Shown: positions 4,868-21,197 of the stretch, piece after piece
Layout of the letters: every line of letters starts with the position of its first letter
How positions within the stretch are numbered: the first letter of the stretch is position 1
DNA from: a virus
DNA: 21,298 nucleotides
IMG/VR virus record: IMGVR_UViG_3300030105_000253
Coordinates: 1 to 21,298 of that record
Direction: 5' to 3' (one strand)
Made by a program: the position numbers and the translations under genes
The notes under the pieces: generated by a model
The model's database searches: none
Seen by the model: the letters and a program-made list of their open reading frames with translations, nothing else
Told to the model about the DNA's origin: nothing

Positions 4868-7069
4868 CTATTTATTTTCTTCATCATTTAATAATAATTT
4901 AGAAAAATCTAATACTGCTTGTTGTACTGCTGGACTTTCTCCTGCAAACACAGTCCCTGCTTTACCTAATAATTTAAAAAATTTATCAGCATTTCCTTCT
5001 GCTGCTACTTTACTTGCAGTAGCTAAATAACTCACTAATTTAGGTCTAGTATATACTACACCAACACTAGCTATTCCTAATGCTGTATTTAATAATCCTA
5101 ATAAACCTCCTAAACCAAATGCTGTAGCACTTCCGCCTACTAAAACTAATTGTCCTATTTGCGACATTCCTGCTCCTTCTGGATTTTTAAAAACTGGATT
5201 TGCTTTCATTCTTCCGCTTAATTCTGCTAAAATTTCTAAATTTTTAGCTAAATTTCCATCTTTAGGCGAAGAAAAAAGATATTCTTTTGCTTGTTTGCTT
5301 AAAGATTGCCAATTTTTAAAAAATTCATTTGGATCAAAAACTTCTTCATATATTTTACCCATACCAGTTTGTTTTGATATAGATTTAGCTCCAATTTTTT
5401 TAATTAATTCTTGTTGCACTATAGCAAACTCGCCTTCACTTAATGATTTTTTTAACCCCCCTAAATATTTTCCGCCATCTTTTCCAGAAGTTTGTAAAAA
5501 ATTTAATAACTTATCTTGGTCTACTTTGTTTAATATAGTATTATAAATATTATCTATTCTATCTTTACCTGCTTTGTAATATTTTGAAGCTCTATTCCAT
5601 TGTTTATTTAAACTAGGGTCAATTTTATTTGTAATACTAGAAATATCATTAGATAATGCACCATACAATTGTTTTAAATCTCCTAAAGCTGCATCTGATT
5701 TAGTTCCTTTTGCAGCTATCTGTTTTCCTAATAAACTTCTATATCTTTTTAAATCATTTATTGATATACCTTCATTTGCTAATTTGTCGCTTATTTCTTT
5801 TTTTAATTGAACAATAGCAGGAAAATCTAAAGCTCCAGTTTTTTGACCTACTATTTTTTCATTTACTTTAATTTTGTCTATTATTGGAGCTTCACCATAA
5901 GTATATATTTTTGTGCCTGGTTTTTTTATTCTAAGTGGTTTTCCTAACACATTTTTTGTTACATCTTTTTTTATGTATGCTCCAGTAGGAGTACCTATTT
6001 CATTTAAAATTTTAGTAAAATTAGGAACATTTTTTATTTTATAATTTTTACCTAATTTTTTACTAAAATTTTCAAAAAAATCATCATATAAACCAGAAGA
6101 TTTTGTATTAAATTTAGTTATAGCATTATAAATGCCTTGTTGTGTTATTTCTTCTACTCTGTAAAAAGGTTTTAATATTAATTCACCGCTAGGTCGCAAA
6201 TTATTTGCAGTACGGACAATATTATCTGACATATCTTTCCACATTTTTTTTCCGCTACCTACTATTAATTGCCTACTTCCTGGTAAATTACTCATTAAAT
6301 ATTCTACACTTAATAAAATATCTTTTGTTATATTGCTGCCTGTAATTAATGACATAGCTCTTGGTTGAACATTAGCTCTAAAATATAAATCTAAATTTTC
6401 ATCTGTTCTTTTTCTTGCTGCTCTACTAATACCTCTAAATGGAGCTTTTAATGTTTTTAAAATTAACGGACTTACAAATTCAGATATAGAACCTATGCCA
6501 AAATCATATAATCTTTCTGTTATATGTTGACCAGTATTTCTGTCTATAACACCTCCTGCTAATTGAAATCCTCTGTCTACTATTTCTCCACCTGCTGTTT
6601 CCCCAAATCCTGCTCCTACTGCCATTTTACCTAATTTATATCCTGTGCCCAGCACCCTGCCAGCAGGAATTGCAGCTGCTATATTTGTTGCAGTTTGCAC
6701 AACAGGTCTAACACCAAATTGTGCTATATCTCCTGTATCAAATCCTTTTGGATTAAATATTTTTCCTGTATTAGGGTCTTTAGGGTCTACATACGCAAAA
6801 TTAGTGTCGTCATATCTTACAGTTTCTGGATATTTTTTTTGCATAGTTGCCATTTTAGAATCATAATTAGGACCTGCTCCTATTAAAAGTCTATCTTTTA
6901 TAGAAGCTCCTGTTTCTGTATCTAATTTAAAATTAATAATTGCATCTTCAGAATAACCTGATTGATTTACTAATTGGTTAATTAAATTATTACGAGTTTC
7001 ATCATCTTGTATAGAAGTATCTTCAATAATTCCTTTAATTTTTAATTTTGTTTCTAATAAACTAGCCAT
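4868..7069 (-). CDS. Large internal virion / DNA-ejection protein (733 aa)
   Basis: This is a long, mostly helical, lysine- and asparagine-rich protein. It has two hydrophobic, glycine/alanine-rich stretches: about residues 122-160 (TNIAAAIPAGRVLGTGYKLG...) and about 641-674 (LVLVGGSATAFGLGGLLGLL...). Such amphipathic or membrane-active segments in a huge helical protein next to tail-hub genes are typical of podovirus ejection proteins, which leave the head with the DNA and form a channel through the envelope. I see no lytic transglycosylase motif. The start directly follows the stop of the 607-aa gene (TAAATG) without a good ribosome binding site, so coupling is likely. Family identity cannot be assigned by eye; the role is inferred from size, composition and position. 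Confidence 0.7.
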   Translation of the reverse strand: MASLLETKLKIKGIIEDTSIQDDETRNNLINQLVNQSGYSEDAIINFKLDTETGASIKDRLLIGAGPNYDSKMATMQKKYPETVRYDDTNFAYVDPKDPNTGKIFNPKGFDTGDIAQFGVRPVVQTATNIAAAIPAGRVLGTGYKLGKMAVGAGFGETAGGEIVDRGFQLAGGVIDRNTGQHITERLYDFGIGSISEFVSPLILKTLKAPFRGISRAARKRTDENLDLYFRANVQPRAMSLITGSNITKDILLSVEYLMSNLPGSRQLIVGSGKKMWKDMSDNIVRTANNLRPSGELILKPFYRVEEITQQGIYNAITKFNTKSSGLYDDFFENFSKKLGKNYKIKNVPNFTKILNEIGTPTGAYIKKDVTKNVLGKPLRIKKPGTKIYTYGEAPIIDKIKVNEKIVGQKTGALDFPAIVQLKKEISDKLANEGISINDLKRYRSLLGKQIAAKGTKSDAALGDLKQLYGALSNDISSITNKIDPSLNKQWNRASKYYKAGKDRIDNIYNTILNKVDQDKLLNFLQTSGKDGGKYLGGLKKSLSEGEFAIVQQELIKKIGAKSISKQTGMGKIYEEVFDPNEFFKNWQSLSKQAKEYLFSSPKDGNLAKNLEILAELSGRMKANPVFKNPEGAGMSQIGQLVLVGGSATAFGLGGLLGLLNTALGIASVGVVYTRPKLVSYLATASKVAAEGNADKFFKLLGKAGTVFAGESPAVQQAVLDFSKLLLNDEENK

Positions 7070-19015: not shown

Positions 19016-19130
19016 GTATTTTTTTCCTAGATAATTTGCTTTTTGCTTTTTTTTCTAATTTATTTGACATTTTATAAAAAGTATAATCCATTTTCTTGTA
19101 ATTACCATCATATTTTTCACCGCTAAACAT
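18990..19130 (-). CDS. Small basic protein (46 aa) between large terminase and portal
   Basis: This short frame starts with the ATG at 19130, overlapping the large-terminase stop as TAATG, and runs into the portal gene, ending 26 bp inside it in another frame. The product, beginning MFSGEKYDGNYKKMDYTFYK, is very rich in Lys and Arg, with a KLEKKAKSKLSRKK stretch and an ending RRHKS. No known family was recognised. The overlap geometry, and the fact that it fills what would otherwise be a 114-bp gap in a tightly packed operon, support it as a real gene; low complexity (AAA codons in AT-rich DNA) is the main doubt. It is too short for most gene finders. Confidence 0.6.
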   Translation of the reverse strand: MFSGEKYDGNYKKMDYTFYKMSNKLEKKAKSKLSRKKIHGKRRHKS

Positions 19131-20464
19131 TATATTCTTGGTTGCCCTCTGTTTTTCTGTGATTTTAAATGCATTTCTACAAGTTCGTCAAGTGTTGGTT
19201 GTTTTAATAATTCATCTAATGGGTCTTTTGCTTTTTCTTTTGGTTTTATATTTTTATACGCCATAGCAAGATATCTAAAGCTGTCGCTTGCATGTGAAGC
19301 CCAATTATGAAGAGGGTTTCTTTTAAATACTCTTTTTACATCATCCCATTCTCTTTGGTAATTTCTTAAAGCATTAAGACCATTTTCACATTTTTCTTGG
19401 TCAAAATAACAATGTCCTAGCAGTAATCGTGCAGCATTAATTCCATCATCTACTTTATGCATAGGGACTATTCTAGGTTTTCTGCCCATATTAATTAAAG
19501 TTTCTGCTCTTGTTCTTCCTGTTCCTAGTTCTCTAACCTTTGCATCATGGGGCAAATAATCATCTCCCCAGTAGGTATAGGGCATTTCTTCCATAACTTT
19601 TACATAATGGTCTAAGCCTACGCCACCGCTTTCATAATAATTAATTATTCTTATCTCTCCCATAGTAACTTGGAAAAACCATAACGCACAACTATCGGAT
19701 ATTCCTAAATCCCATGCGACATGCACAGGCAAAGTTTCATCATAATCTACTTTAGTTATTCGACCATCTTGTTCTGCATCTATAACCATATTGCCATAAT
19801 ATGCTCCTTTAATAGCTGCAGCCCAACTACATTCAAATTCCTGCATATATTCATCTTCACCCATTTGTTTCTTAGCAGCTTCTAATTCTTTTTGATCTAC
19901 AACTTTAGTTTCTGAAGCTTTGTATATTACTCTATGCCAATCAGGATCATGTTTTGCATCTTCATACAATCTCCAAAATTGATTTCTTCCTTTAGGAGTT
20001 CCAATAAAAATAGCCCAACCTTTTCTATCCACAAGCGCAGGTCTTACAATCTCTCCCCACATTCTCGGACTCATATCGGCATACTCATCAAGTATTACGC
20101 CATCAAGATAAATACCACGCAAAGCATCTGGATCATCCCCTGCTCCGTATAAGCGAATACGACTACCATTTAATAAATCGACTCTTAACTCCGATTGATT
20201 GATTTTAGTTCCAGGAATATCTCTCGTATAATACATAAGATAATCCCAAGCCACAGCTTTTGCTTGTCGGTAGTAGGGAGCAATATAAGCATATCTGCCA
20301 TCACTACGTTCTGTTTTTAACTCTAATGCCCTACGTAATAACTCGGTAACAGCATACACAGACTTTCCCCAACGTCTATGCGACACACAGATTTTAAATC
20401 TTTTATTATTCTGATGTAAGCTTGCCTGTAAAGGTCTTGGTGTATACGGAATAGTTACATGCAT
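19130..20464 (-). CDS. terL: Terminase large subunit
   Basis: The 444-aa protein shows both terminase domains. ATPase: a Walker A-like motif SHRRWGKS at residues 28-35, Walker B VILDE at 123-127 with catalytic Glu127, and the coupling motif GTPKGRN at 155-161. Nuclease (RNase H-like): WDLGISD at 251-257 with Asp252, a later acidic cluster WGDDYLPHD, and SHASDSFRYL near the C-terminus supplying the last metal-binding Asp. This is the motor and cutter that packages DNA into the procapsid. It overlaps the small terminase stop as TAATG at its start and the 46-aa gene at its end. The packaging type (cos or headful) cannot be settled from the protein by eye. Confidence 0.95.
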   Translation of the reverse strand: MHVTIPYTPRPLQASLHQNNKRFKICVSHRRWGKSVYAVTELLRRALELKTERSDGRYAYIAPYYRQAKAVAWDYLMYYTRDIPGTKINQSELRVDLLNGSRIRLYGAGDDPDALRGIYLDGVILDEYADMSPRMWGEIVRPALVDRKGWAIFIGTPKGRNQFWRLYEDAKHDPDWHRVIYKASETKVVDQKELEAAKKQMGEDEYMQEFECSWAAAIKGAYYGNMVIDAEQDGRITKVDYDETLPVHVAWDLGISDSCALWFFQVTMGEIRIINYYESGGVGLDHYVKVMEEMPYTYWGDDYLPHDAKVRELGTGRTRAETLINMGRKPRIVPMHKVDDGINAARLLLGHCYFDQEKCENGLNALRNYQREWDDVKRVFKRNPLHNWASHASDSFRYLAMAYKNIKPKEKAKDPLDELLKQPTLDELVEMHLKSQKNRGQPRI

Positions 20465-20862
20465 TACTCAACCCTTTTATCAGTTACTTCACCCTCTATC
20501 ACAGTCATATCTTTTGGTGGGTCTAACGAAAAGCTCACACTAATCTGATTAGGTATTCCCTCATGCTCCACCTTTTCCTGAAAGCCACCCTTAGTTTTTG
20601 CCAAAAATATAGCAGAAATCGTATCGCCATTCATTGCTTTCTTATACAACTGACTACCAATATCCATAGTCAATCTTTCCCTACCAGTTTCTAATGCATG
20701 ACCAAAATGTTTTCGCAAAGTCTTAGGATCACAACCCACTAACTTCCCTATCTGCACATGCGTTAATCCAAACCCTACTCCCAATGAACATACCTTCTCC
20801 TGCTCTGGTGTCGGTTTAAAGATAGGTCTGCCGCCTAAGTCCTTCTGTACTTTAACTTCCAT
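20464..20862 (-). CDS. terS: Terminase small subunit
   Basis: The 132-aa protein has GGRPIFKPTPEQEKVCSL at residues 10-27, then a helix-turn-helix (about residues 33-53, LTHVQIGKLVGCDPKTLRKH) of the type small terminases use to recognise the packaging site. A helical oligomerisation segment follows (about 56-92, ending LAKTKGGFQEK), then a polar tail. This order and length suit small-subunit terminases of podoviruses. It is the first gene of the operon: no gene is supported upstream, and promoter-like elements lie 65-95 bp before its ATG. An AAGGG at a normal distance before the ATG serves as the ribosome binding site. The stop overlaps terL as TAATG. Confidence 0.85.
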   Translation of the reverse strand: MEVKVQKDLGGRPIFKPTPEQEKVCSLGVGFGLTHVQIGKLVGCDPKTLRKHFGHALETGRERLTMDIGSQLYKKAMNGDTISAIFLAKTKGGFQEKVEHEGIPNQISVSFSLDPPKDMTVIEGEVTDKRVE

Positions 20863-20926: not shown

Positions 20927-20956
20927 ATAATATATTACAAAACTCATACAAGTCAA
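20927..20956 (-). promoter_or_regulatory. Candidate sigma70-like promoter for the late operon (P1)
   Basis: Reading on the minus strand, a -35-like TTGACT (20951-20956) is followed after 16 bases by TATATT (20929-20934), or after 18 bases by TATTAT (20927-20932). The small-terminase ATG is 65 bases further on, leaving a short leader. This fits a bacterial housekeeping promoter, so transcription by host RNA polymerase is inferred. AT-rich DNA gives many chance -10 boxes, so the good -35 match is the main support. Confidence 0.5.
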
Positions 20957-20982: not shown

Positions 20983-21019
20983 GTGGGTAGTAGTACTTTA
21001 TCCCCACCACTACACCCAC
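20983..21019. repeat. GC-rich imperfect dyad (11 paired bases, one bulge)
   Basis: GTGGGT-a-GTAGT (20983-20994) pairs with ACTACACCCAC (21009-21019), with one bulged A and a 14-base loop. No T-run follows on either strand, so a terminator is unlikely. Its GC content stands out against the AT-rich surroundings, and it lies just upstream of P1 and near the terminase genes, so a protein-binding or packaging role is possible. Confidence 0.5.
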
Positions 21020-21104
21020 CCCCCACTCGGTCGGTTGAAAAAATCTCAAATCAAAAAAGATTGAATGAGCCTCATTACCTATCCTAGCACCTAAACAGTA
21101 ATTA

Positions 21105-21133
21105 ATTAGCTAGGTTGTTATGCACCTAGTCAA
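21105..21133 (-). promoter_or_regulatory. Second candidate sigma70-like promoter (P2), with a dyad in its spacer
   Basis: On the minus strand TTGACT (21128-21133) is followed after exactly 17 bases by GCTAAT (21105-21110), a weak -10 match. The same TTGACT hexamer is used by P1. A dyad CTAGGT/ACCTAG (21110-21129) lies almost wholly between and over the two boxes, suggesting that access could be controlled. Support is moderate to low because the -10 box is imperfect. Confidence 0.35.
21110..21129. repeat. Inverted repeat CTAGGT-8-ACCTAG, possible operator
   Basis: CTAGGT (21110-21115) and ACCTAG (21124-21129) are exact reverse complements separated by 8 bases. A second short pair, TGTTAT (21116-21121) and ATAACA (21133-21138), overlaps it. 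Placement over the -35 and spacer of P2 is what would be expected of a repressor or activator site, although no regulator is encoded in the window. Confidence 0.45.
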
Positions 21134-21197
21134 TAACATCTAACTTAATGCTAGTTAATGCCAATGGAAGAGTTTTAAGTGGTGGTGGCTTGCCCTA

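Follow-up and report, generated by a model that had tools for sequence, protein, structure and literature searches.

Across a divergent phage lineage, a non-coding element of about 80 bp is kept just upstream of the small terminase gene terS and on its strand. Comparison of the sequences suggests that a G-rich patch within this element is the core of the DNA-packaging initiation site, that is, a candidate site for recognition and cutting by the terminase, and we give this reading a probability of roughly 0.55. The element was found in a stretch of 21,298 bases (the window), which is an entire linear IMG/VR-type virus record from an uncultured marine phage. In the window, terS (20464..20862, minus strand) encodes a small terminase subunit of 132 aa with a helix-turn-helix-like N-terminal part and a match to phrog_309 (E 1.6e-4), and terL (19130..20464, minus strand) encodes a large subunit of 444 aa with Terminase_6N and phrog_2 matches; genes for a P22-like portal, a major head protein and the tail also lie on the minus strand. 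The TerL protein is 46–47% identical to those of HTVC010P-type pelagiphages and of Methylophilales phage Venkman. The predicted structure of TerS has a mean pLDDT of 62.7 and gave no significant match in the PDB. The helix-turn-helix-like stretch of TerS is nearly invariant among the 13 relatives compared, as would be expected if the shared DNA element were the target of this protein. A sigma-70-like promoter for terS, recognized as a consensus match only (TTGACT, 16 or 18 nt, TATATT or TATTAT; 20927..20956, minus strand), lies downstream of the element and is kept in close relatives.

The patch resides in the non-coding right end of the window (436 bases), starting 121 bases ahead of the terS start codon. 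The sequence-only reading had described C-rich blocks here, and direct reading confirms a C6 run at 21019–21024, CCCC at 21002–21005, CCC at 21015–21017 and CTCGGTCGG at 21026–21034, together with the 11-bp dyad with one bulged base that it had claimed, whose arms are GTGGGTAGTAGT (20983–20994) and ACTACACCCAC (21009–21019). Its description of a GC-rich patch in an AT-rich genome is equally accurate, as the G+C content is 0.58 at 20983–21030 versus 0.25–0.47 in 500-base windows. The C6 run by itself is ordinary: the window has two runs of at least six C or six G, at 5456 and at 21019, against a mean of 2.2 in its first-order Markov copies. Taken as a whole, the patch does stand out, as no other 35-mer in the window is richer in C or G (20/35). 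When cut tightly (43 nt), the dyad folds better than its shuffles (z −2.6, matched by 3/200 shuffles); in a 58-nt piece, z is −0.9 and 39/200 shuffles are as good. The dyad is common to the closest relatives, but in others its register is shifted or the dyad is broken. Conservation across the compared sequences is strong evidence for the reality of the patch. Upstream of the element, the window also has an imperfect direct repeat: GCACCTA(A/G)(A/T)CA(G/A)TAA occurs twice, 35 bp apart (21087–21101 and 21122–21136).

The patch is one part of the element, which occupies positions 20983–21076 on the minus strand. Along that strand, a small dyad leads into an A/T tract, and CCGA is then followed by a G-run and (A/C)TAAAG. 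The small dyad (AATGAGGCTCATT, 21064..21076) forms the upstream edge, and other dyads, statistically weak, are found there in most relatives. As a covarying palindrome it was rejected: the mean arm is 3.44 versus 2.85 in shuffles, yet several neighbouring places reach 3.2–3.3, and the dyad is therefore kept only as description. It is followed by the A/T tract (CTTTTTTGATTTGAGATTTTTTC, 21036..21062), which was delimited by the alignment of relatives and is AT-rich in most groups; L104 has a GC-rich hairpin at this place instead. The G-rich block (CCGACCGAG, comprising G6 TGGG TGTAGTGG TGGGG; 21002..21034) contains the second arm of the 11-bp dyad at 21009–21019, and four or more G residues stand in place in 40/43 unique elements, a set of 44 sequences minus L143 (a chance coding match) in which the weak members L104, L075, L055, L057 and L020 (E 0.02–1) were kept. 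The ATAAAG anchor (20996..21001) has a TAAAG-like counterpart in 41/43 unique elements, and beside it lies the candidate cut region (GTACTACTACCCAC, 20983..20996), which includes the other arm of the 11-bp dyad. Its placement in the window would follow from homology with the ends of three contigs (L193, L190 and L194), and it is predicted to form a 14-nt 5′ overhang if the site is a cos site.

Relatives were collected with TerS, which gave 38 loci, and with TerL, for which the best 80 of 312 loci were used. The layout recurs in these relatives on the terminase strand, from the small dyad and A/T tract to (A/C)TAAAG, with either CCGA or CGGA ahead of the G-run. Conservation in related phages had been proposed beforehand as a check on the patch, and this comparison bore it out: the element is kept where its flanks are not. 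Leave-group-out models, for which the expected places had been set with a model that the held-out groups had helped to build, re-found the element at the expected place in 35/40 relatives (10/11, 8/8, 13/13, 0/2 and 4/6 loci by group), compared with 1/40 for an equally long 80-bp flank upstream and 6/40 for one downstream. A stricter test with training on the nearest relatives only recovered 1/28 distant loci at E 1e-3, so that conservation concerns the layout of the element more than its exact sequence. In three relatives (L005 2108–2185, L007 2727–2804 and the right end of L194), the G-run is replaced by a C8–C9 run (CTACCCCCCCCCTAG) with the neighbouring sequence kept, as if the core of the element had been turned round; L005, with C9, is among the 43 unique elements, and L007 and L194 belong to its type. 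The GC-rich relatives L103, L104, L106 and L107 (G+C 0.56–0.58) seemingly follow the same plan upstream of terS, although the match is weak, with the order GGGGCCCC, a hairpin GCTCGGCTTCGCCGAGC and then GGGGGTCGG. A host and prophage search of genome contigs returned six loci, the best at 51% (Rhizobiales), and on reading no clear element was seen in L181 and L182.

The element is also tied to terS when it is searched for on its own. A DNA pattern of the element alone, of the group C/D type and not that of the window's own subgroup, fetched 32 contigs, nine of which the terminase searches had missed, and a TerS homologue lies downstream on the same strand in 32/32 of them. The distance between element and TerS is 66–159 bp in 28/32 contigs and 544–2077 bp in 4/32; otherwise, extra sequence in these contigs sits between TerS and TerL. 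The location expected of a cos site, beside the terminase genes and upstream of terS, is thereby found in the window and in all 32 element-fetched contigs. Extra genes, some of them methyltransferase-like on reading, occupy the element–terS or terS–terL gap in the contigs of L158, L162, L168 and L178, and the same pattern is seen at the packaging genes of L011–L013, L019–L024, L027 and L028; the packaging-gene neighbourhood looks, from these extra genes beside terS, like an insertion hot spot.

The sequence-only reading had offered a packaging site or a quadruplex-type control site. The packaging half is the most likely reading, given the conservation, the tie to terS and three contig ends, and the quadruplex half was not supported. 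In the packaging reading, TerS would bind the element through its helix-turn-helix, the A/T tract would bend the DNA, and TerL would cut at or beside the TAAAG anchor, starting and perhaps ending the packaging of a concatemer. The contig ends come from 61 contigs (62 were submitted, and L006 had no match), which had been found with patterns chosen after the element was seen. Three of them, each from a different sample, have a terminus no more than 15 bp from the anchor: L193 ends with GGTGTGGGGATAA, L190 begins with GTAATACTACTCAC and L194 ends with GGGGATAAAGGAATACTACTCAC. Two of the three approach the anchor from upstream and the third from the side of terS; the closest of the remaining contig ends lies 114 bp away. 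The end of L194 and the start of L190, which belong to different samples and phages, have 14 nt in common with one mismatch; filled-in 5′ overhangs give such sequence shared by both ends, as an excerpt of PMC5557969 describes. If the three ends are physical, the simplest geometry would be a staggered cut with the 14-nt 5′ overhang GTACTACTACCCAC (20983–20996, minus strand). The cluster has a P value of 0.027, which becomes 0.066 when local density is taken into account, and 27–29% of draws should contain an equally tight cluster at some place in the stretch; the fit of the contig ends to such a cut is only suggestive. The 14-nt cos geometry is a sharp guess within the packaging reading, to which a headful pac cut and a short terminal repeat are alternatives.

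About 58/61 contigs read across the anchor and may originate in concatemers or permuted genomes; cos phages also give read-across contigs when unpackaged DNA is present, according to the same excerpt (PMC5557969). Three further contigs start 149, 149 and 153 bp upstream of the anchor (L003, L174 and L104), and these starts, together with the ends of L193 and L194 at −1 and +13, would fit a terminal repeat of about 150–165 bp. L190 fits cos and not a terminal repeat, whereas L003, L174 and L104 fit a repeat and not cos. For the Skadi phages, a 125-bp direct terminal repeat is reported for 4/9 circular contigs in an excerpt of PMC10504331; the k-mer overlap of the assembler, and not a repeat in the DNA itself, may be its source. 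The 62.9-kb IMG/VR contig 3300030116_002682 (L021, L029 and L151) carries two terminases, related but distinct, at a distance of 35 kb, and part of it is about 99.7% identical to contig 3300037963_001475, so that it appears to combine two phages, as a chimera or a recombinant. In the parts compared, no join was found at the element, and the contig reads across the ends of a related contig.

L008 shares its element with L009 and its downstream flank with L005, L014 and L015, the switch falling at ATAAAG. Joining of cos ends would produce such a block exchange, and so would ordinary recombination. The bolder proposal, that the site is a cos with a 14-nt 5′ overhang and that cohesive-end joining between co-infecting phages shuffles genomes exactly there, is unlikely. 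Were it true, the G-run, which is a C-run in L005 and L007 and lies on the opposite strand in pelagiphages, would be read by shape or strand asymmetry and not by letters. A 3′ overhang of the mycobacteriophage L5 type is CGGTCGGTTA; a resemblance to it in CGGTCGGTTG at 21028–21037 was discarded, as this piece is not kept in relatives.

The element is ordinary in kind and can be compared with known packaging sites. Like the lambda-type cos (cosQ–cosN–cosB), it is non-coding and lies directly upstream of the small-terminase gene, and a short 5′ overhang would suit the three contig ends, lambda having 5′ cohesive ends. In contrast to lambda, no lambda cos sequence is recognized in the element, most contigs read across it, and the phage has a Terminase_6N TerL and a P22-like portal; P22 itself packages by the headful mechanism. 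The headful pac sites of P22, SPP1 and P1 are likewise near terS, and the portal and the predominance of read-across contigs, as with permuted genomes, are further points of likeness; the repeats upstream of the element in group D recall P1 pac, which has repeated boxes. Unlike these pac sites, the element is not inside terS. The HTVC010P-type pelagiphages share the related TerL, and HTVC010P, Greip, Lederberg, HTVC035P and HTVC024P have C/G-tract blocks upstream of terL, but their G-runs lie on the strand opposite the terminase, and the element model did not find the blocks when run on these regions. On the terminase strand upstream of terL, C-rich blocks such as TACCCCCTACCCCC are seen in the HTVC010P-type loci L041, L042, L043, L045 and L049. 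The pelagiphage C-rich blocks are possibly an analogue of the element.

The strongest competitor of the packaging reading, in our view unlikely, is a control region of the late operon, in which an operator, an activator site or a structured 5′ leader would govern the terminase and structural genes from terS onward. The constant position upstream of terS on the same strand suits this explanation as well, as do the location of the element between replication-type and late genes in L132 and L148, the −10-like sequences noted by eye before the dyad in several groups, and an anchor hairpin that beats shuffles in L001 (z −2.1), L004 (z −3.2) and L025 (z −3.4). However, the terS promoter match in the window begins downstream of the element, and its transcript would therefore not contain the element. 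The z of the anchor hairpin varies among relatives from −3.4 to +1.6, the A/T hairpin does not outdo its shuffles, and no terminator was found. Stems that seemed by eye to covary had suggested a structured RNA, which was abandoned: the shuffles did not bear it out, RNAalifold on 30 sequences gave five pairs only as a common structure, and the element has no Rfam match.

A phage replication origin or priming site, which is quite improbable, would account for the A/T tract and for a putatively DUF1376-like gene and a primase-helicase-like gene nearby in relatives. It would also agree with the TGTTC repeats upstream of the element, present in six to eight copies in 5/5 group D loci tested (P 0.000–0.025); the loci with such TGTTC(T/C) copies, which lie within 330 bp and exceed dinucleotide shuffles, are L084, L090, L078, L091 and L077. 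The repeats are not significant in most other groups (of the 25 loci submitted, five gave no result and L018 was too short), the GC-rich L104 has no A/T tract there, and the element is constantly tied to terS and not to replication genes. A G-quadruplex control element can be given very little credence: a run of at least four G occurs in 40/43 and a two-layer pattern in 33/43 unique elements, but the three-layer motif is present in 0/43 with loops of up to 7 or up to 12, L005 and L007 have a C-run instead, and two-layer motifs are common on the minus strand of the window (27).

The excerpts of the literature that were searched contain no mapped packaging site for HTVC010P-type phages or for the lineage of the window, and HTVC010P-type phages are reported, in an excerpt of PMC5332604, to be among the most abundant in the sea. 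A packaging site at this element would offer a first handle on genome packaging in the window lineage. The 14-base prediction can be checked in existing virome reads and, if borne out, would show where the genomes behind many contigs truly end.
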